Positions 37,908 to 46,945 of a stretch of 64,000 nt of DNA are shown here, one piece after another. Source of the DNA: Tenggerimyces flavus (lineage in GTDB: Bacteria; Actinomycetota; Actinomycetes; Propionibacteriales; Actinopolymorphaceae); the NCBI RefSeq assembly GCF_016907715.1, contig NZ_JAFBCM010000001.1, forward strand, positions 4,960,001-5,024,000, in the 5' to 3' direction. A program made the translations under genes and the position numbers. The notes under the pieces were generated by a model, which was given only the letters and a program-made list of their open reading frames with translations, did not search any database and was not told the origin of the DNA. Numbering within the stretch: the stretch's first letter is position 1; every line of letters starts with the position of its first letter.

Positions 37908-39089
37908 TCACCGGACCAATCGCAGCAGGCGCCGGCCTCGACGGGACAGGGAGAAGTCGAACGCCTTGTACAGCAGGCGGTTCAGTGGCAGATCCCATTC
38001 GCCGAGGTACTCCACGGCCTCGCCGCCGGTGCCGACCTTGAACTGGATCAGGCCGAGGTGCGGGTCGTTCTCGTCGACGGTGTCGGTGATGCCGCGCAGG
38101 TTGTAGACCGTGCAGCCGGCGGCCAGCGCGTCGGTGATCATCCGCCACTGCACGGCGTTGGAGCCGCGAACGTCCCGCTTGGCCGTGGTGGACGCGCCGA
38201 AGCTGTACCAAGCGTGGTCCCCGACGCGGACCCAGGTGGTGGCGGCGACGAGGTCGCCTTCGTGGTGGGCGAGGTAGAGCCGGATCCGATCCTTGTCCTC
38301 GGCCAGCAGCACCTCGATCATCAGCTGGAAGTAGCTCAGTGGCCGCGGCGTGAAGCCATCACGCGCCGCGGTCTCGAGGTAGATCCGATGGAAGTCGGGC
38401 AGGTCCTCGACCCCGCCCTCGGTCACGACGACGCCCGCCTTGGCGGCCTTCTTGAGGTTGCGCCGCCAGAGCTGGTTCATACCTCGCAGGAGCTGAGCCT
38501 CGTCCTTGCCGGCCAACGGAAGCTGGAAGATCCAACGCGGCTGCCCGACGGAGAATCCGCCGTCGTCGTCGTTCCGCGGCCGCCAACCCAGCCGGAGGAG
38601 CTGGGCGCCAGCCCGGTGGGCGGCGTCGTTCTGGGAGTCCGGCGGTACGTCGCTGAGCCTGCTGATCGTCGGGTCGGCGATCGCAGCCTTGATCGTCGGA
38701 GCGCTCCAGGTGCGGGTCACCGCCAGCCCACCGATCCGTACGGCGAACGCACCCGCGCTCCGAAGGTGTCGCACCAGCGGGTCGAGCCAGCTGGCCAGGT
38801 CGTCCGAGGCCCAGTCGATCGACGGCCCTTCGGGCAGGTACGCCAGCGACCGATTCGTCCTGGGCAGCCGGCGATACAGCACCAGGCCCGCGCCGACCAG
38901 CCGATCGTGGTCGTCGAACCAGCCCAGCGACTCCGAGCCCCACTCGGTCTTCACCCCGGCCCAGGCCGGGGTCTGCAGGAAGCTCACCGACGGTCGGGTC
39001 GCGTTGAACGCGACGTGCTCGCTGGTCGTGATGGCCCGTACGCGAGAGACCACAGTCGCGACTACCCGTCCCCGGCGATCAACACACAC
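37908..39089 (-). CDS. FemAB-family aminoacyltransferase (VanK/FemX-like)
   Basis: A 393-residue GNAT-fold peptidyltransferase. FemX family blocks are visible: FLQTPAWAGVKTEWG, a YLPEGPSIDW segment, MNQLWRRNLKKAAKAG and WYSFGAS. In Streptomyces coelicolor VanK adds the Gly branch to D-Lac-ending precursors and is needed for VanHAX-mediated resistance. Here it is divergent from vanH, and a VanR-type direct repeat lies between them, so a VanK role is likely (inference). The start GTG at 39089 is uncertain; downstream in-frame GTGs exist. Confidence 0.8.
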   Translation of the reverse strand: MCVDRRGRVVATVVSRVRAITTSEHVAFNATRPSVSFLQTPAWAGVKTEWGSESLGWFDDHDRLVGAGLVLYRRLPRTNRSLAYLPEGPSIDWASDDLASWLDPLVRHLRSAGAFAVRIGGLAVTRTWSAPTIKAAIADPTISRLSDVPPDSQNDAAHRAGAQLLRLGWRPRNDDDGGFSVGQPRWIFQLPLAGKDEAQLLRGMNQLWRRNLKKAAKAGVVVTEGGVEDLPDFHRIYLETAARDGFTPRPLSYFQLMIEVLLAEDKDRIRLYLAHHEGDLVAATTWVRVGDHAWYSFGASTTAKRDVRGSNAVQWRMITDALAAGCTVYNLRGITDTVDENDPHLGLIQFKVGTGGEAVEYLGEWDLPLNRLLYKAFDFSLSRRGRRLLRLVR

Positions 39090-39116
39090 ATGCGCCCGAG
39101 ACTACGAACCGGCACC

Positions 39117-39132
39117 TATCGTCGGCATATCG
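39117..39132 (+). promoter_or_regulatory. candidate VanR-binding direct repeat upstream of vanH
   Basis: TATCGTCGGCATATCG: two TATCG units at 11-bp spacing (39117 and 39128), as expected for an OmpR/PhoB-type dimer. The same arrangement occurs between vanR and the VanY-like gene. Between repeat and start codon the vanH and VanY-like leaders also share GGCAACACCGC and CTTGACTGCG. It may also serve the divergent VanK-like gene. Confidence 0.7.
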
Positions 39133-39179
39133 AAAACCGGATACACCCCGGCAACACCGCAAAGTCTTGACTGCGTCGC

Positions 39180-40220
39180 ATGGCCCACAGCGATCCCGCG
39201 CCAACAGCGTCCCGTCACGCCCGCTCGCTGGAGCCCTCGTCCGTCGCGACCGTCCCGACCACGGGCGTCACGGTCTACGGGTGCGAGCCCGACGAGGCCG
39301 GCATGTTCCACGAGCTGGCGCCGCACTTCGGCGTGGTGCTGACGATCACCGAGGCGCCGGCGGCTGAGGCCACCATCGAGCTGGCCCTCGGAAACCGCTG
39401 CATCAGCGTGGGTCACAAGACCGAGATCACGAACGCGACGCTGCTCGCGCTCAGCCAGGTCGGCGTGGAGTACATCTCCACCAGGAGCATCGGCTTCAAC
39501 CACCTCGACGTGAGCTACGCGGAGAGCGTCGGTATCGAGGTGGGGAACGTCGTCTACTCGCCCGACAGCGTTGCCGACTACACGTTGATGTTGATGCTGA
39601 TGGCGGTCCGGGACGCCAAGACGATCATCCGCCGCGCGGACATCCACGACTACCGGCTGAGCGACGTACGCGGCCGAGAGCTGCGCGACCTGACCGTCGG
39701 GGTCGTGGGAACGGGACGCATCGGCGCCGCGGTCCTGGACCGGCTGCGGGGATTCGGCTGCCGGACGCTGGCGTACGACCTCCGTCCCAAGACCTCCGCC
39801 GAGTACGTCCCGCTCGACGACTTGCTGCGGGAGAGCGACCTCGTCACGCTGCACACGCCGCTCACCGCGGACACGTACCAACTCCTGGACCGTCGACGGA
39901 TCGGGCAGCTGAAACGTGGCGCGATCGTCGTCAACACAGGGCGCGGTGCGCTGCTCGACACCGAGGCTCTCCTGCAGGCGTTGGAGGACGGCCGGCTCGG
40001 TGGCGCGGCGCTTGATGTCCTCGAAGGGGAGGAGGGCATCTTCTACGCTGACTGCAGCGACCGGCCCATGGAGAGCAAGGTGCTGGTGCGGCTGCAGGAG
40101 CTGCCGAACGTGATCGTCAGTCCTCACACGGCCTATTACACCGACCACGCGCTGAGCGACACGGTCGAGAACTCCCTCGTCAACTGCCTGAGATTCGAAA
40201 GTAGGAACCCGCGTGGATAG
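39180..40220 (+). CDS. vanH: D-lactate dehydrogenase VanH
   Basis: A 346-residue D-2-hydroxyacid dehydrogenase that reduces pyruvate to D-lactate for depsipeptide synthesis. After a 34-residue extension it reads TVYGCEPDEAGMFHELAPHF, the usual VanH start. NAD motif GVVGTGRIGAAV, Arg in ISTRSIGFNHLD, Glu in VLEGEEG and the His in SPHTAYYTDHA are present. No ribosome-binding site precedes ATG 39180, so the true start or a leaderless mode is open. The stop overlaps vanA by 8 bp. Confidence 0.92.
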   Translation: MAHSDPAPTASRHARSLEPSSVATVPTTGVTVYGCEPDEAGMFHELAPHFGVVLTITEAPAAEATIELALGNRCISVGHKTEITNATLLALSQVGVEYISTRSIGFNHLDVSYAESVGIEVGNVVYSPDSVADYTLMLMLMAVRDAKTIIRRADIHDYRLSDVRGRELRDLTVGVVGTGRIGAAVLDRLRGFGCRTLAYDLRPKTSAEYVPLDDLLRESDLVTLHTPLTADTYQLLDRRRIGQLKRGAIVVNTGRGALLDTEALLQALEDGRLGGAALDVLEGEEGIFYADCSDRPMESKVLVRLQELPNVIVSPHTAYYTDHALSDTVENSLVNCLRFESRNPRG

Positions 40221-41250
40221 GCTCAAGGTCGGCATCGTCTTCGGTGGCTGCTCCGAGGAACATCCCGTCTCCGTCAAGTCCGCCCAGCAGGTCGAGCAGC
40301 ACCTCGATGCCGAGAGGTACGAGCCGTTCTGGATCGGGATCACCAAGGACGGCGCCTGGAAGCTGTGCGACGGCCCCAGCTCGGACTGGGATACCAGCGG
40401 CCGCCCAGCCGTGCTGTCACCGGACCGGAGCGTCCACGGCCTGCTCGTGCTCGAGCAGGGGCGGCACGAGACGATCCGGCTGGACGTGGTGCTTCCCGTT
40501 CTGCACGGCAAGCTGGGTGAGGACGGCGCGATCCAGGGTCTGCTGGAGCTGGCCGGAATCCCTTATGTGGGTTGCGATATCCCGAGCTCCGCTCTGTGCA
40601 TCGACAAGTCCCTGACCTACAACGTGGTGGGGAACGCGGGCATCCCCACGCCGAGCTACTGGATCGTCGCGGCCGACGAGAACGTCGATCCCGACCAGTT
40701 CACCTACCCGATCTTCGTCAAGCCGGCCCGGTCGGGTTCGTCGTTCGGCGTCAGCAAGGTGTCCAGCCCGGAGGAACTGCCGGACGCGATGGTGACCGCA
40801 GGGGAGTTCGACTCGAAGGTGCTGATCGAAGAGGCCGTCGTCGGCAGCGAGGTGGGCTGCGCCGTCCTCGGGAACGACACCGAGCTGATCGTCGGCGAGG
40901 TGGACCAGATCCGGCTCACCCACGGCTTCTTCAAGATCCACCAGGAGGACTCGCCCGAGAGCGGCTCGGAGAACTCGACGATCATCGTTCCCGCCGACAT
41001 CCCCGCGGAGACGCGGCAGGCCGTTCAGCAGACCGCACGCGCGATCTACCGCGCCCTTGGATGCAAGGGCATCTCGAGGGTCGACATGTTCCTGCAGGAC
41101 GACGGACGGGTGCTGCTCAACGAGGTCAACACCCTGCCTGGGTTGACTTCTTACAGCCGCTACCCGCGCATGATGGAGGCTGCGGGGATCTCGTTCGCCG
41201 AGGTGATCGACCGTACCGTGTCGCTGGCCCTGACCGGCAAGATCCAGTGA
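40213..41250 (+). CDS. vanA: D-alanine--D-lactate ligase VanA
   Basis: A 345-residue ATP-grasp ligase joining D-Ala to D-lactate, the step that removes the glycopeptide target. The N-terminal GIVFGGCSEEHPVSVKSAQQ is VanA-like, the omega loop reads LTHGFFKIHQE (His rather than Tyr at the D-Lac specificity position), and LNEVNTLPGLTSYSRYP supplies metal ligands. GTG at 40213 overlaps the vanH stop. A Van-type rather than housekeeping Ddl assignment rests on the omega-loop His and the operon. Confidence 0.93.
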   Translation: MDRLKVGIVFGGCSEEHPVSVKSAQQVEQHLDAERYEPFWIGITKDGAWKLCDGPSSDWDTSGRPAVLSPDRSVHGLLVLEQGRHETIRLDVVLPVLHGKLGEDGAIQGLLELAGIPYVGCDIPSSALCIDKSLTYNVVGNAGIPTPSYWIVAADENVDPDQFTYPIFVKPARSGSSFGVSKVSSPEELPDAMVTAGEFDSKVLIEEAVVGSEVGCAVLGNDTELIVGEVDQIRLTHGFFKIHQEDSPESGSENSTIIVPADIPAETRQAVQQTARAIYRALGCKGISRVDMFLQDDGRVLLNEVNTLPGLTSYSRYPRMMEAAGISFAEVIDRTVSLALTGKIQ

Positions 41251-41855
41251 ACGACGACTTCGTCTTCGTCGACGAGGTCGTTCCCGGCGTGCGGTGGGAC
41301 GCCAAGTACGCCACCTGGGACAACTTCACCGGCAAGCCGGTGGACGGCTATCTCGCCAACCGCATCGTCGGGACGAGGGCGCTCTGCGCGGCGCTGGACG
41401 GCGCTCGGGAGAAGGCCGAGTCGCTCGGCTTCGGCCTGCTCCTGTGGGACGGGTATCGCCCGCAGCGCGCCGTGGACTGGTTCCTGCGCTGGTCGCAACA
41501 GCCGGAGGACGGCCGGACGAAGCCGCGCCACTACCCGAACATCGACCGGGCGGGGATGTTCGAGAAGGGGTACGTGTCCGCCAGGTCCGGCCACAGCCGG
41601 GGGAGCGCGGTCGACCTGACGCTGTACGACCTGGCTACCGGTGACCTCGCTCCGATGGGCGGTGACCACGACCTGATGGACTCGGTGTCCCATCACGGGG
41701 CACCAGGGGTCACGCAGGTCGAAGCGAGGAACCGGCAGTGCCTGCGTTCGCTCATGGAGGCTTCAGGATTCGATTCGTACGACTGCGAATGGTGGCACTA
41801 CACGCTGAAGCGCGAGCCGTATCCCCATACCTACTTCGACTTTCCGATCACGTAG
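41247..41855 (+). CDS. vanX: D-Ala-D-Ala dipeptidase VanX
   Basis: A 202-residue zinc dipeptidase, the same length as enterococcal VanX, that hydrolyses D-Ala-D-Ala to stop reversion to the susceptible precursor. The zinc ligands are in SGHSRGSAVDLT (His, Asp) and EWWHYTL (His, catalytic Glu). The transition-state Arg is in LLWDGYRPQRAVDWF. GTG at 41247 overlaps the vanA stop (GTGA). Confidence 0.95.
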   Translation: MNDDFVFVDEVVPGVRWDAKYATWDNFTGKPVDGYLANRIVGTRALCAALDGAREKAESLGFGLLLWDGYRPQRAVDWFLRWSQQPEDGRTKPRHYPNIDRAGMFEKGYVSARSGHSRGSAVDLTLYDLATGDLAPMGGDHDLMDSVSHHGAPGVTQVEARNRQCLRSLMEASGFDSYDCEWWHYTLKREPYPHTYFDFPIT

Positions 41856-42851
41856 ATGCCGCTCACGTTGTACGTCGACGGTGACCGGTGGCGGGCGCAT
41901 CAGCGGTCGGTCGTCGCGTCGTTCCCGGGGATTGTGCCTGTGTGCAAGGGGAACGGGTACGGGTTCGGCAACGCGCGGCTCGCGGCTGAGGCGCAGCTGT
42001 TGGGTGCGGACCTGATCGCGGTCGGCATGTACGAGGAGGTGCCCGCCGCCGCTGAGGTCTTCGACGGCGAGATCCTCGTGCTGGTGCCGTGGCGGCCGTT
42101 CGCGGAGGTCACCGAGAAGTATCCGGTGATCCACACGGTGAGCCGGTTGGCGGACCTGGAGGCGATCGCCAAGGTCACCGGGCCGAAGCCCCGCGTGGTC
42201 GTCGAGCTGCTCACGTCGATGCGACGGCACGGGATTCCTGCCGCCGAGCTCGGCCTGATCGGGCCGCTGCTCGATCGCGTGGAGTCGGTCGGCTGGGCGT
42301 TGCATCTGCCGTTGACTGCCGCGGGTGCGCATGGCGCGGAGGTCGAGCGGTGGATCGGCCGGCTGCGTGGCTCGGGGCTGCCGTTGGAGCGGTTGTTCGT
42401 GTCGCATCTGACGAGCGGCGACCTGGCGGCGTTGTCGGCGAAGCATCCGGAGCTGACGATCCGTCCGCGGGTCGGGACCGCGCTGTGGTTGAAGAAGGAC
42501 CAGCTGTACCGCGCCAAGGCGCACGTGCTGGACGTTCATCGGGTCAGGCGCGGCTCGATCGTGGTCGTCGCGGGCGGAACGGCGAACGGCATCGCGCTCG
42601 AGGCACCCAGCCAGGTCGCGGATCTTCGTACCCGGGCGAAGGTCCTCGCCGCCAGCAGCCTCGAAGCCGCCGGCCGCGCGCTGTCCCCGTACACGATCGC
42701 CGGCCGCCGACGGTGGTTCGCCGAGCCACCTCATCAGCAGGTCAGCATGATCCTCGTGCCCAGCAAGGTGAAACCCCCGAACGTCGGCGACGAGCTCGAC
42801 GTCAACGTCGGCATGACGCTGACCACGTTCGACCGGATCGTGACCAGCTAG
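41856..42851 (+). CDS. alanine-racemase-like protein lacking the catalytic tyrosine
   Basis: A 331-residue fold-type III PLP protein. The lysine region reads PVCKGNGYGFG where alanine racemase has VKANAYGHG, so the Lys is kept. The segment that normally carries the catalytic Tyr (pattern VSYG) reads GSIVVVAGGTANG, without Tyr, and the usual SMDQ reads VSMILV. Racemase activity is therefore doubtful. It follows vanX directly (stop and start abut) in the resistance operon. It might supply D-Ala by another mechanism or act as a PLP-binding regulator (inference). Confidence 0.7.
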   Translation: MPLTLYVDGDRWRAHQRSVVASFPGIVPVCKGNGYGFGNARLAAEAQLLGADLIAVGMYEEVPAAAEVFDGEILVLVPWRPFAEVTEKYPVIHTVSRLADLEAIAKVTGPKPRVVVELLTSMRRHGIPAAELGLIGPLLDRVESVGWALHLPLTAAGAHGAEVERWIGRLRGSGLPLERLFVSHLTSGDLAALSAKHPELTIRPRVGTALWLKKDQLYRAKAHVLDVHRVRRGSIVVVAGGTANGIALEAPSQVADLRTRAKVLAASSLEAAGRALSPYTIAGRRRWFAEPPHQQVSMILVPSKVKPPNVGDELDVNVGMTLTTFDRIVTS

Positions 42852-43987
42852 TGCTCGCACCTCGTATCGTCGTCGCTGGCGGTCACTCGGCCGGGCACAT
42901 CGAGCCCGCGATGAACCTCGCCGATGCCCTCCGTCGGCTGGAGCCGGCGGCAGCGATCACCGCCCTCGGCACCGTTCGCGGTCTGGACACCACGCTGATC
43001 CCGGCCCGCGGCTACCCGCTCGAGCTCATCCCGCCGGCGCCGCTGCCGCGCGAGCCGAGCCTGGACCTGCTGCGGCTGCCGATCAGGCTGCGCGACGCGG
43101 TGCGGGCGGCCGGGGCGGTGCTCGACCGCGTCCGGGCCGAGGCCGTGGTGGGCTTCGGCGGCTACGTGGCCGCGCCGGCGTACGTCGCCGCCCACAGACG
43201 CGGTCTGCCGTTCGTCGTCCACGAGGCGAACGCCCGGCCCGGAGTCGCCAACTGGCTGGCGGCCCGGATGACGACCCACGTGTTCACCGCCGGGCCGAGC
43301 GTCCGGCTGGCGCACGCGACCGCCATCGGGATCCCGCTGCGGCCGGCGATCGCCGGGCTCGACCGCTCCGGGCTGCGCGGCGAGGCCCGGCGGCGGTTCG
43401 GCCTGCGACCCGACGGGCCCGTGCTGATAGTGACCGGCGGATCGCAGGGCGCGCGGACGATCAACGTCGCTGTGTCCGCCGCGGCGGGGGAGCTGAGGGC
43501 CGCCGGCGTGCAGGTGCTGCACATCACCGGACCGAACCACGCGGTCGACGTCCCGGCCGGCGACCCGCCGTACGTCGTGGTCTCCTACGTCGACGAGATG
43601 CGGTACGCCTATGCCGCCGCGGACTTCGTGATCTGCCGGTCGGGTGCGATGACGTGCGCCGAACTCGCCGCGGTCGGCCTGCCCGCCGCGTACGTCCCCC
43701 TGCCGCTGCGCGGCGGCGAGCAGCGGCTCAACGCCGTTCCCGTCGTCAGAGCCGGCGGGGCACTGCTCGTCGACGACGCCGACCTCGACCCGGCCTGGAT
43801 CGAGACCGTCCTGCTCCCCGTTCTGAGAGATCCCGATCGCATCGCGGCGATGTCGGCGAACGCGTCGGCGGCCGGCGCACCCGACGCCGACGTCGTGCTG
43901 GCCCGGCACGTCCTCGCGGCGGTCGCCGAGCGCCGCCGCGACGTCAACTGTCGGCGTGCGGTGGCGCGACGGGCAGCCGCACCGTGA
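42851..43987 (+). CDS. MurG-like UDP-GlcNAc transferase paralogue
   Basis: A 378-residue glycosyltransferase of the MurG family: VVAGGHSAGHIEPAMNLADA (usual GGGTGGH-x2-PA), VVGFGGYVAAPAYVAAHRRG, VVHEANARPGVAN, VTGGSQGARTIN and the C-terminal CRSGAMTCAELAAVGLPA. It may load GlcNAc onto D-Lac-ending lipid I. It starts one base inside the racemase-like stop and overlaps vanS (convergent) by 44 bp. A second MurG in a van operon is uncommon; the division-cluster copy is expected elsewhere in the genome. Confidence 0.8.
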   Translation: MLAPRIVVAGGHSAGHIEPAMNLADALRRLEPAAAITALGTVRGLDTTLIPARGYPLELIPPAPLPREPSLDLLRLPIRLRDAVRAAGAVLDRVRAEAVVGFGGYVAAPAYVAAHRRGLPFVVHEANARPGVANWLAARMTTHVFTAGPSVRLAHATAIGIPLRPAIAGLDRSGLRGEARRRFGLRPDGPVLIVTGGSQGARTINVAVSAAAGELRAAGVQVLHITGPNHAVDVPAGDPPYVVVSYVDEMRYAYAAADFVICRSGAMTCAELAAVGLPAAYVPLPLRGGEQRLNAVPVVRAGGALLVDDADLDPAWIETVLLPVLRDPDRIAAMSANASAAGAPDADVVLARHVLAAVAERRRDVNCRRAVARRAAAP

Positions 43988-45053
43988 CGCTGAGCCCGCT
44001 GCCGGGGCGCGGGGCGAGCGTGAGGGTCCCGTCGTGCGCCTGGGCGATGCTCTTCACGATCGCCAGGCCGAGGCCGGCACCAACATGGTCCGTGCGTACC
44101 CGTTGGGAGCCGCGCTGGAATGGCTCGGCAAACGTGGAAACCATAGCTGCGCTGAGCCGCTGGCCAGTGTTCTCGACCGTGAGCACCACAGCATCGGGAT
44201 GAACGCTGGTCGTGATCCACACCTTGCCGTGCTCGGGCAGGTTGTGGACGATCGCGTTGTGGACGAGGTTGGTCGTCAGCTGCAGCAGCAGCGCGGGCGA
44301 GCCGAACGCGGTGGCCAGGTCGCCGGAGGTCTCGATCGTGATGTCGCGCTTCTCCGCGAACGGAAGGAGCGTCTCCGCGGCCTCTTCCGCGGTGAGGGAC
44401 AGATCGACGTGCTCTCGGGTGAACGACCGTTGGTCGGCGCGGCTGAGCACGAGCAGGGCTTCGGTGAGATCGATCGCCCGGGTGTTGACGAAGTGCAGCC
44501 GGTCGACGAGCTCGCCCGGGTTCCGGTTCGGATCGTTGCGGGCGACATCGAGAAGTGTCTGCGTGATCGCCAACGGGGTGCGCAGCTCGTGGGAGGCGTT
44601 GGCCGCGAACCTCTGCTGCTCGGCGATCTGCGACTCGAGCCGAGCCAGCATCGTGTCGAAGCTGTCGGCCAGCTCGCGGAACTCGTCCTTGCGGCCCGGT
44701 AGCCGCACGCGGTGGGCCAGCGAGCCGTCCGCGGCCAGACGGGTGGCCTCGGTGATGCGCGTCAGGGGAGCGAGCATGCGGCCGGCGAGGATCCATCCGC
44801 CCACCAGACCGAACACCATCAGGAACAGCAGGGTGGCGACCGAGATCTCGGTGAAGGCTCGCTGGGTGTTGGAGCGGCCGGGAACGAACGCACCACCTAT
44901 GCCCGATCGCGCCTCTCTGATGATCCCCCACTGGGGGTAGAGCTGCTGGAGGACCATCCAGATGACGAGCAGCAAGATGCCCGCGAGCATGAGGAAAGCC
45001 GCGTAGCTGATGGTGAGTTTGAGGCGAACGCTCAACCCCGGTTGCCTATCCAC
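43944..45053 (-). CDS. vanS: sensor histidine kinase VanS
   Basis: A 369-residue kinase with two membrane helices (AAFLMLAGILLLVIWMVLQQ; ISVATLLFLMVFGLVGGWIL) around a short extracellular loop, a HAMP region, the H-box FAANASHELRTPLAITQ at about residue 146, and ATPase boxes NLVHNAIVHN and GAGLGLAIVKSI. GTG 45053 overlaps the vanR stop by 8 bp. The loop is short, as in S. coelicolor VanS, which responds to glycopeptides. It probably controls vanR-dependent promoters. Confidence 0.88.
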   Translation of the reverse strand: MDRQPGLSVRLKLTISYAAFLMLAGILLLVIWMVLQQLYPQWGIIREARSGIGGAFVPGRSNTQRAFTEISVATLLFLMVFGLVGGWILAGRMLAPLTRITEATRLAADGSLAHRVRLPGRKDEFRELADSFDTMLARLESQIAEQQRFAANASHELRTPLAITQTLLDVARNDPNRNPGELVDRLHFVNTRAIDLTEALLVLSRADQRSFTREHVDLSLTAEEAAETLLPFAEKRDITIETSGDLATAFGSPALLLQLTTNLVHNAIVHNLPEHGKVWITTSVHPDAVVLTVENTGQRLSAAMVSTFAEPFQRGSQRVRTDHVGAGLGLAIVKSIAQAHDGTLTLAPRPGSGLSVTVRLPVAPPHADS

Positions 45054-45741
45054 GGTCTCCTCCCGGACGCCCGGTGTCGGGTGCCGTGTCGATGCGATAG
45101 CCGACGCCGGGCACGGTGGCGATGAGCCAGGGTTCGCCGAGTCGTTTGCGCAGTGACGAGACGGTGATGCGGACGGCGTTGGTGAACGGGTCCGCATTCT
45201 CGTCCCAGGCCCGTTCCAGCAGCTCTTCCGCGCTGACGACACCGCCCTCGGCGCCGACGAGGACCTCGAGCACGGCGAACTGCTTCCGGGTCAGCGCTAC
45301 GTACCGGTCGTCGCGATAGACCTCGCGGCGGAACGGATCCACCCGCAGCCCGGCGAGCTCGCGCACCGGTGGCCTGTTCTGGGCACGCCTGCGGTCGAGG
45401 GCTCGGAGCCTGAGGACGAGCTCTCGGAGGTCGAACGGCTTGGTGAGGTAGTCGTCGGCGCCGAGTCCGAACCCGGTGGCCTTGTCGTCGAGCCGGTCGG
45501 CAGCGGTGAGCATGAGGATCGGCATGCCACTGCCGGAAGCGACGATGCGCTTGGCGATCTCGTCGCCGGACGGGCCGGGGATGTCGCGGTCGAGGACGGC
45601 GATGTCGTAGGTGTTGACGCTCAACAACTCCAGCGCGGTGTCACCATCTCCGGCGAGGTCAGCGGCGATCGCCTCCAGGCGTAGACCGTCGCGGATGGCC
45701 TCTGCCAGCAGGGGTTCGTCCTCGACGATCAACACACGCAT
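45046..45741 (-). CDS. vanR: OmpR-family response regulator VanR
   Basis: A 231-residue regulator. The receiver has MRVLIVEDEPLLAEAIRDGL, the phospho-acceptor in AVLDRDIPGPSGDE at about residue 51 and Lys in YLTKPFDLRELV. The C-terminal winged helix includes LTRKQFAVLEVLV and RITVSSLRKRLG. It is divergent from the VanY-like gene; an 11-bp-phased TATCG repeat lies between them. Van assignment comes from linkage to vanHAX. Confidence 0.9.
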   Translation of the reverse strand: MRVLIVEDEPLLAEAIRDGLRLEAIAADLAGDGDTALELLSVNTYDIAVLDRDIPGPSGDEIAKRIVASGSGMPILMLTAADRLDDKATGFGLGADDYLTKPFDLRELVLRLRALDRRRAQNRPPVRELAGLRVDPFRREVYRDDRYVALTRKQFAVLEVLVGAEGGVVSAEELLERAWDENADPFTNAVRITVSSLRKRLGEPWLIATVPGVGYRIDTAPDTGRPGGDRG

Positions 45742-45765
45742 CCGACGATGTTACGAGTCCGGCCA

Positions 45766-45781
45766 TATCGTCCGCATATCG
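45766..45781 (+). promoter_or_regulatory. candidate VanR-binding direct repeat between vanR and the VanY-like gene
   Basis: TATCGTCCGCATATCG: TATCG at 45766 and 45777, with 11-bp spacing, the same as before vanH. It is 24 bp upstream of vanR and 46 bp upstream of the VanY-like start, so it may control both. The distance to the VanY-like start codon nearly equals that at vanH. Confidence 0.7.
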
Positions 45782-45827
45782 AGAAGCACATACGGGCTGG
45801 CAACACCGCGCTGCCTTGACTGCGGGT

Positions 45828-46460
45828 ATGACCTCGAACGAACCAGCACGCACGACACCTCGTCGCGCTCGATCGACCTTCCTGGCCGCTCTTCTTGTCG
45901 TCAACGCGGGGTTCGTGGCAGTCCTCATCGGGCAGTCGCTGACGTCCTCGCCCTCCTCGGCCGCGGCACCGTCCCCGGCCGAGTCGCCGACCCGGCACCG
46001 CCCCCGTGTGCTCGGCGAAGCAGACGGCGCCGTACCCGACGGCACGACGGTGTTCGACGACGTTCCGGCCGTCGCCAACCTCGACGCCGACTTCCTCCAG
46101 GCCCTCCGCCAGGCGGCCACGGACGCCGCGGAGGACGGGGTCGAGATCTTCGTCAACGGTGGCTGGCGTTCCCCGGCGTACCAGGAGAACCTGCTCCGGG
46201 AGGCAGTACGGAAGTACGGCTCGGAAGAGGAGGCCTCCCGCTGGGTCGCCACCCCCGAGAAGTCCAACCACGTGGCAGGGCACGCGATCGACATCGGGCA
46301 CGCCGAAGCCAAGGCCTGGTTGTCCAAGCGCGGCGCCGCGTACGGGCTGTGCCAGATCTACCGCAACGAGCCCTGGCACTACGAGTTGCGCCCGGAGGCC
46401 GTCGAGAACGGCTGCCCGCCCATGTACGACGACCCCACGCACGACCCTCGGATGCAGTAG
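45828..46460 (+). CDS. membrane-anchored D,D-carboxypeptidase (VanY-like, M15B)
   Basis: A 210-residue protein with one N-terminal helix (TFLAALLVVNAGFVAVLIG), a linker and an M15 peptidase domain. Zinc ligands are visible in VAGHAIDIG (His, Asp) and EPWHYEL (His, Glu), plus the Arg of NGGWRSPAYQ. It would trim D-Ala from uncrosslinked pentapeptides, an accessory to VanX. ATG 45828 is preferred over the upstream TTG 45816. The upstream VanR repeat supports membership of the van regulon. Confidence 0.85.
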   Translation: MTSNEPARTTPRRARSTFLAALLVVNAGFVAVLIGQSLTSSPSSAAAPSPAESPTRHRPRVLGEADGAVPDGTTVFDDVPAVANLDADFLQALRQAATDAAEDGVEIFVNGGWRSPAYQENLLREAVRKYGSEEEASRWVATPEKSNHVAGHAIDIGHAEAKAWLSKRGAAYGLCQIYRNEPWHYELRPEAVENGCPPMYDDPTHDPRMQ

Positions 46461-46464
46461 TGGC

Positions 46465-46905
46465 TCAGCCCCGCAGGTCCCTGAGGAAGCGCGACGATCT
46501 CCCTGTCTGGCTGACGTATCCGCGGGCCTGGTAGAACGCGTGCGCGTCGTCCCGCCGGTCGGAGCTGGTGACCTCCATCCGCAGGCAACCCTGGCTCGCG
46601 GCGAAGTCCTCGGTGGCCTCGACGAGACGGGAGCCGACCCCCTGCTTGCGCACGCGGTCCGAGACGACGAGGGCGGTGATGCGGGCCCAGGCGCCGTCCC
46701 GTTCGAAGAACGGGCAGACGTGAACGGCGATCACGCCATGGAGCTCGCCCTCGACGTCGGCCACGTACGCCGCACTGGCCGGATCGTCGATCCACGCCTG
46801 GAGCCGGGCCTCCGTCGCCGCTTCGCCCTCCTGCGGATAGCCCAGCTGGTCGAGCAGCTCGTTGATGGCCTTGGCGTCAGCGCTGTGCGCGGCTCTGATC
46901 TCCAT
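46465..46905 (-). CDS. GNAT-family N-acetyltransferase
   Basis: A 146-residue acetyltransferase with the acetyl-CoA loop VVSDRVRKQGVGSRLVE at about residues 84-100 and the ending HAFYQARGYVSQTGRSSRFL. ATRLQAWIDDPASAAYVADV is the usual N-terminal block. Substrate unknown. It is convergent with the VanY-like gene (4-bp gap) and has a TATCG-like repeat upstream in reverse orientation. Membership of the van regulon is possible but weak. Confidence 0.85.
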   Translation of the reverse strand: MEIRAAHSADAKAINELLDQLGYPQEGEAATEARLQAWIDDPASAAYVADVEGELHGVIAVHVCPFFERDGAWARITALVVSDRVRKQGVGSRLVEATEDFAASQGCLRMEVTSSDRRDDAHAFYQARGYVSQTGRSSRFLRDLRG

Positions 46906-46929: not shown

Positions 46930-46945
46930 TATCGTCGGCATATCA
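46930..46945. promoter_or_regulatory. third TATCGTCGGCATATC copy, weak VanR-box candidate
   Basis: TATCGTCGGCATATCA repeats the vanH box except for the last base. It lies 25 bp upstream of the GNAT gene, in inverted orientation relative to that gene, and overlaps the stop of the following dehydrogenase gene. The orientation argues against a standard promoter-proximal role. Confidence 0.4.

Follow-up and report, generated by a model that had tools for sequence, protein, structure and literature searches.

A predicted D-Lac-type van cluster of Tenggerimyces flavus with a van-clade MurG paralogue and a duplicate of a femX-linked alanine-racemase-like gene

Introduction

The single-contig, 8.52 Mb genome of Tenggerimyces flavus contains a van gene cluster in which vanHAX is followed by an alanine-racemase-like (alr-like) gene and a murG paralogue, located at positions 37,908 to 46,460 of the 64,000-nucleotide stretch analysed here (the window, genome positions 4,960,001-5,024,000). 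Among the closest described systems is the cluster of Streptomyces coelicolor, which we take to be arranged as vanRS-vanJ-vanK-vanHAX and which, like the window, combines D-lactate (D-Lac) remodelling with an adjacent FemX-type cross-bridge enzyme. In Streptomyces, VanK attaches the residue of the cross-bridge to precursors ending in D-Lac, whereas the FemX of the window falls outside the VanK clade; to our knowledge, the S. coelicolor cluster has no murG or alr-like gene. The second comparison is with the VanO operon of Rhodococcus equi and related vanHAX-orf2-murG clusters (available parts of PMC8698665), which share with the window a van-clade murG behind vanHAX. The same parts of that source report vanHAX-orf2-murG and vanHAX-murG in several orders in actinobacteria, as well as GNAT genes next to van genes, and those available of PMC9689679 place murG after van genes in Paenibacillus, so that murG behind vanHAX, which a preliminary description of this DNA had singled out as unusual, was already published. 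A term search of the text of PMC7325946 and PMC11273654 returned no murG.

For the window VanS and VanR the best-scoring models are those of VanO, but the orf2 slot between vanX and murG holds a duplicate of an alr-like housekeeping gene, and the locus is not assigned to the VanO type. We propose that it probably encodes VanRS-controlled, inducible D-Lac remodelling that counters glycopeptides from the surroundings and is accompanied by a cross-bridge kit, based on a ligase and a VanX that match curated equivalogs, a van-clade MurG that retains the motif residues, and a regulatory box confined to the cluster.

Results and discussion

Gene content and putative regulon

Profile searches and the sequence itself confirmed all genes named in the preliminary description. 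Features are listed by window position:

37908..39089, minus strand: femX paralogue, divergent from vanH (FemAB E=6.8e-49; not VanK by tree)
39117..39131, plus strand: VanR-like box TATCGTCGGCATATC, femX-vanH intergenic region (genome pattern search)
39180..40220, plus strand: vanH, D-lactate dehydrogenase (NCBIfam vanH families; putative start codon)
40213..41250, plus strand: vanA-type D-Ala--D-Lac ligase (equivalog NF000206)
41247..41855, plus strand: vanX, D-Ala-D-Ala dipeptidase (equivalog NF033115)
41856..42851, plus strand: alanine-racemase-like gene (PF01168, Ala_racemase_N, E=9.7e-14)
42851..43987, plus strand: van-MurG, paralogue of the lipid I N-acetylglucosamine (GlcNAc) transferase (GT28 N and C domains of MurG type; TIGR01133)
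43944..45068, minus strand: vanS sensor kinase (NCBIfam VanS-O best; start inferred)
45046..45741, minus strand: vanR response regulator (NCBIfam VanR-O best)
45766..45780, plus strand: VanR-like box, vanR-vanY intergenic region (genome pattern search)
45816..46460, plus strand: vanY-like D,D-carboxypeptidase (PF02557 E=3.2e-13)
46465..46905, minus strand: GNAT acetyltransferase (PF00583 E=5.9e-17)
46930..46944, plus strand: VanR-like box preceding the GNAT gene (genome pattern search)

The order thus reads femX (-) / vanH-vanA-vanX-alr-like-murG (+) / vanS-vanR (-) / vanY (+) / GNAT (-). The abutting or overlapping codons noted earlier along the vanH operon hold for all five genes when the junctions are read: vanH and vanA overlap by 8 bp, vanA and vanX have GTGA in common, the vanX TAG directly abuts the ATG of the alr-like gene at 41856, and the TAG of the latter shares its G with the GTG start of murG at 42851. 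Both the ligase (NF000206, 597.5 bits, cut-off 550) and VanX (NF033115, 395.7 bits, cut-off 320) score above curated cut-offs and vanH, vanR and vanS are present, which characterises the locus as a van cluster of D-Lac type. The remaining proteins stay below the cut-offs of their best models, namely VanH (vanH-Ac1, 557.9 bits against 750; vanH_gen, 527.8 against 540), VanS (VanS-O, 475.4 against 720), VanR (VanR-O, 451.4 against 505) and VanY (NF000086 VanY-N, 70.1 against 250). Matches to the ligase N-terminal domain number seven, at about five places in the genome, the window's included.

A 39-bp repeat lies upstream of vanH/femX, vanR/vanY and the GNAT gene. With at most one mismatch its core, TATCGTCSGCATATC, has three matches in the whole 8.5 Mb genome, all within the cluster, while the reversed core pattern, searched genome-wide as a control, has none. 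We infer that the repeat is a putative VanR box, and the GNAT gene is accordingly counted as a predicted member of the cluster because it carries its own box. A shorter core, TCGTCNGCATATC, is present in 16 of the 80 other named van loci compared, and in 13 its position is upstream of vanH or vanY; the 80 loci are the best of 150 relatives.

A van-specific MurG paralogue

A MurG-like gene occurs downstream of vanX in 18 of the 80 loci and is of the van type in 17; the remaining one (L092) is distant, with 37% identity. In a tree of 34 rows, comprising 14 of the 17 van-type sequences (L071, L093 and L125, which are partial or split, were omitted), L092, 18 housekeeping sequences and the window, the window MurG falls inside a clade made up of the 14 van-type loci and itself (support 100/100), with L092 outside. 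The division MurG of the same genome lies elsewhere, grouped with that of Actinopolymorpha, with whose family the host groups. The comparison with the division-cluster MurG proposed earlier sets the paralogue apart. Although the window MurG scores 230.4 bits against TIGR01133, below the cut-off of 250.25, 60 columns are invariant between van and housekeeping MurG, including H16, N127, E271, E290 and Q291, and its GGSxG stretch is common to all division MurG rows. Eight columns differ by MurG kind, among them a Gly12-to-His exchange within the first glycine loop, and a change from GN to RG before GEQ. That the paralogue takes part in assembling lipid I/II on D-Lac stems, as suggested earlier, seems reasonable.

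The alanine-racemase-like gene

None of the 80 named loci has an alr-like gene adjoining vanX, and the sole alr-like gene in these stretches (16 of which are shorter than 16.5 kb) lies 7.6 kb downstream of vanX, behind femX (L108). The gene would therefore be new at this van position, and a conserved vanHAX-alr-murG order was found in none of the loci compared. Of the two paralogues proposed to stand apart from housekeeping copies only MurG does so; the alr-like gene has been seen in this position in a single genome and falls with a housekeeping copy from that same genome (G000:C1:1025190-1026221), located directly after femX, with which it shares 289 of 331 residues (87%). Its closest named relative is that of Actinopolymorpha pittospori, at 63%. 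The van copy hence duplicates the second gene of a femX-alr-like housekeeping pair of actinobacteria, from which it differs by the loss of a tyrosine segment that the housekeeping genes keep. We also considered that it might correspond to the VanO orf2. This was rejected since the genes that, judged by position, correspond to orf2 in Rhodococcus and Actinomadura (L121, L122), which encode about 200-235 residues and lack a Pfam match, are unrelated to the racemase family. By eye, those two genes (L121 8543-9250, L122 8386-9252) show a Cys/His pattern like that of C39-type peptidases.

A possible, if somewhat doubtful, explanation is that of a neutral passenger: the alr-like gene would have been duplicated by chance into an otherwise ordinary van cluster and would now be decaying there. 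Its restriction to this genome agrees with that, as does its sole length change, an in-frame deletion of 14 codons that removes the catalytic tyrosine segment, and the slight excess of polarised changes on the van branch (14, against nine on the housekeeping copy and 20 unpolarised). Apart from that deletion, however, the gene is open over 331 codons, it abuts vanX and murG exactly, and the ratio of nonsynonymous to synonymous divergence between the copies is far below 1 (dN 0.072 / dS 0.38 by NG86, dN 0.065 / dS 0.86 by YN00; dN/dS about 0.08-0.19), with 30, 18 and 81 differences at the three codon positions. These substitutions indicate that the van copy is under purifying selection. Dead-looking duplicates can nevertheless arise in this family, as an orphan second copy in Streptomyces sp. 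H39-S7 (G514; L275 6646-7668, outside the alignment described below) has the lysine, one arginine and the tyrosine substituted and is likely a pseudoenzyme.

It appears quite unlikely that the gene encodes an active racemase for alanine or serine and so provides the ligase with D-alanine (D-Ala) or D-serine, as VanT does in VanC and VanG types. The PF01168 match speaks for this reading, together with the lysine and two arginines of the racemase site that the gene retains and that the whole alr-like family conserves in common with VanT and alanine racemase, of the fold type III that binds pyridoxal phosphate (PLP). Yet the ligase is of D-Lac type, the catalytic tyrosine segment is deleted, the C-terminal part of the family is of its own type, and the scores are far below curated cut-offs (NCBIfam alr TIGR00492, 20.4 bits against 168; VanT, 23.3 against 460), while two stronger Alr-type genes lie elsewhere in the genome (PF01168, 226.9 and 165.8 bits). 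The serine-racemase/VanT role was dropped on the scores and the deletion. An alanine-racemase match also stands directly before a D-Ala ligase match at G000:C1:8376673-8378093.

Comparison of the family profile with the two alanine racemases of the same genome gave a probability of 96.8, and family residues Lys31, Arg124, Arg205 and Tyr238 align on the PLP lysine, two arginines and catalytic tyrosine of the racemase, roles which we assume from Geobacillus Alr. In an alignment of 67 rows, including two of the window copy and two of its housekeeping counterpart, K31, R124, H184, R205 and H307 are invariant throughout, which makes the window copy a member of the family; Tyr238 is present in all 65 other rows and missing only from the two window-copy rows. 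The C-terminal part carries GGTxxG, SPF/Y and PPH motifs. Because the catalytic tyrosine is missing, the label of racemase is doubtful for the van copy, and the loss of this segment makes a PLP-binding or structural partner more likely. It may be a structural partner of FemX or a passenger. A single-sequence AlphaFold2 model of the protein (mean predicted local distance difference test 37.9) was not used, and literature searches found no published function for the family.

The additional FemX and the proposed function of the cluster

The preliminary description regarded the FemX as VanK-like, which did not hold. In a tree of 41 rows, into which 19 of 28 van-linked FemX sequences were entered, the 19 VanK form one clade (100/100) with the window FemX outside, next to the housekeeping FemX of a relative from the same order (G490; support 91/95), around which no van genes were found in 14 kb. 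We conclude that the window FemX is an independent recruit rather than a VanK, and that FemX and the alr-like gene entered the cluster separately from the VanK line, because this FemX stands outside the VanK clade and beside a housekeeping FemX. A third FemX-like gene in the genome (G000:C1:7930085-7931095, L277) is 49% identical to the housekeeping FemX, and no alr-like or van gene was found near it in the 13 kb read.

In the mechanism we favour, VanS and VanR would induce all units of the cluster, VanH and VanA would make D-Ala-D-Lac, and VanX and VanY would remove D-Ala-D-Ala ends. The van-MurG would then transfer GlcNAc onto D-Lac lipid I, and the extra FemX would put the cross-bridge residue on D-Lac precursors. 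The alr-like gene, as a duplicate of the conserved partner of housekeeping femX, would in this lineage have come to lie between vanX and murG, such that a cross-bridge module of FemX and its partner travels with the van operon.

The type III polyketide synthase DpgA is needed for the dihydroxyphenylglycine of canonical glycopeptide pathways, and a search of the whole 8.5 Mb genome with PF00195, which covers this type, gave no match; nonribosomal peptide synthetase genes and type V pathways lay outside that search. It is thus very unlikely that the cluster protects a glycopeptide producer from its own product, even though vanHAX is present within or close to the biosynthetic cluster of some producers, as described in the available parts of PMC8698665. 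Of the two functions suggested earlier, self-protection and resistance, it is resistance to outside glycopeptides that is favoured.

Several observations weigh against the proposed D-Lac remodelling with a cross-bridge kit. Firstly, resistance, induction and the binding of VanR to the boxes are predicted from sequence, and the exact shorter core is missing from 64 of the 80 other van loci. Secondly, the alr-like van copy is known from a single genome and could be a passenger, and its 14-codon deletion could be recent decay. Thirdly, vanHAX occurs with no femX or vanK in the stretch read in hosts of the LL-diaminopimelate (LL-DAP) wall type, namely Nocardioides (L076), Kribbella (L138, L144) and Jiangella (L089, L112), and Nocardioides and Kribbella monticola have a single FemX match per genome, which indicates that a second FemX is not obligatory. 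Finally, a tree of VanH, VanA and VanX meant to find a donor did not place the window beyond keeping it outside a largely Streptomyces VanK group.

The alr-like family, femX and LL-diaminopimelate

Outside an Ilumatobacter-like group, 58 loci from 54 different genomes were read, four pairs of them being duplicates. In every one the alr-like gene lies directly 3' of a femX of the same orientation, at a distance of -4 to 160 bp as judged from approximate start positions. It stands behind femX in 29 of 29 loci read among 53 other alr-like-positive genomes of the same order. Apparent FemX-alr-like fusions in some genomes were rejected, as the two genes occupy separate reading frames and do no more than abut or overlap. 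Searches of literature listings and abstract openings found no paper linking FemX, an alanine-racemase-like protein and LL-DAP.

Among 78 named vanX genomes, of which 44 were queried with the window protein and 34 with the housekeeping protein (L104 was not included, and L109 and L081 are one genome), the family is present in 39 and absent from 39. The carriers are 28 Streptomycetaceae, two Catenulispora, four Jiangella, three Kribbella, one Actinopolymorpha and one Nocardioides; non-carriers belong to Pseudonocardiaceae, Nocardiaceae, Thermomonosporaceae, Micromonosporaceae, Pseudofrankia, Solirubrobacter, Agromyces, three Bacillota and several metagenome-assembled genomes. All 39 carriers come from families with LL-DAP walls, with wall types partly assumed: we take Jiangella and Catenulispora to be of LL type and the non-carriers to be of non-LL types. 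The available parts of PMC6113628 state LL-DAP (there LL-A2pm) for Actinopolymorphaceae, Kribbellaceae, Nocardioidaceae and Embleya, and for Streptomycetaceae LL-A2pm, with LL or meso in substrate mycelium. As the sample was selected for vanX and the carriers represent a few related lineages, they amount to far fewer than 39 independent cases.

Strong FemX matches were obtained in six of six LL-type named genomes tested and in none of 27 others, with weak matches in Agromyces and Pseudonocardia, so that FemX and the alr-like family are indistinguishable by distribution in the named genomes. Three of 57 relatives from the order lack the alr-like family, and the same three lack FemX. Within one genus of these relatives (g242), G462 and G467 have the alr-like gene and G449 and G485 have neither it nor FemX.

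Across 396 genomes sampled evenly from the phylum, 25 have a match to the alr-like family, that of T. flavus included. Ten of the 25 (G113 among them) come from a single taxonomic family outside the class, that of Ilumatobacter. FemX was found in none of 11 outlying stretches, ten from the Ilumatobacter family and one from another, nor in the six whole genomes searched of the ten. In eight of these stretches (L054-L058, L060, L061, L063) the next gene encodes a DUF418/acyltransferase-3 membrane protein. The wall of Ilumatobacter coccineum is presumably of LL-DAP type, and if so the occurrence of the family in genomes lacking FemX favours a link to DAP over one to the cross-bridge. The examined text of PMC3910706 does not state this wall type.

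MurE motifs were readable in 18 of 22 loci, and DNPR and GKGHE occur in all 18, in LL and meso genera alike; we take this form of MurE to be the meso-DAP type. The motifs are compatible with epimerisation after MurE, or MurE may simply accept LL-DAP. As a tentative and rather speculative proposal, we hypothesise that the alr-like family linked to femX consists of PLP-dependent epimerases that act on DAP, converting the D centre of meso-DAP to L before glycylation by FemX, and that the tyrosine-less copy in the van operon has been retuned to D-Lac precursors. The substrate may be free DAP, or DAP at its distal, free amino-acid end within the UDP-N-acetylmuramic acid peptide or lipid II.

The T. 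flavus cluster suggests how a D-Lac resistance operon could be adapted to a host whose wall is glycine-bridged and of LL-DAP type, namely through the acquisition of wall-gene copies, and it brings out a family of PLP-fold genes beside femX that co-occur with LL-DAP walls in the genomes checked. If the epimerase proposal were true, this family would supply the so far missing factor that determines LL-DAP in peptidoglycan. The family makes the old chemotaxonomic question of LL- versus meso-DAP in the wall testable by a single gene deletion.

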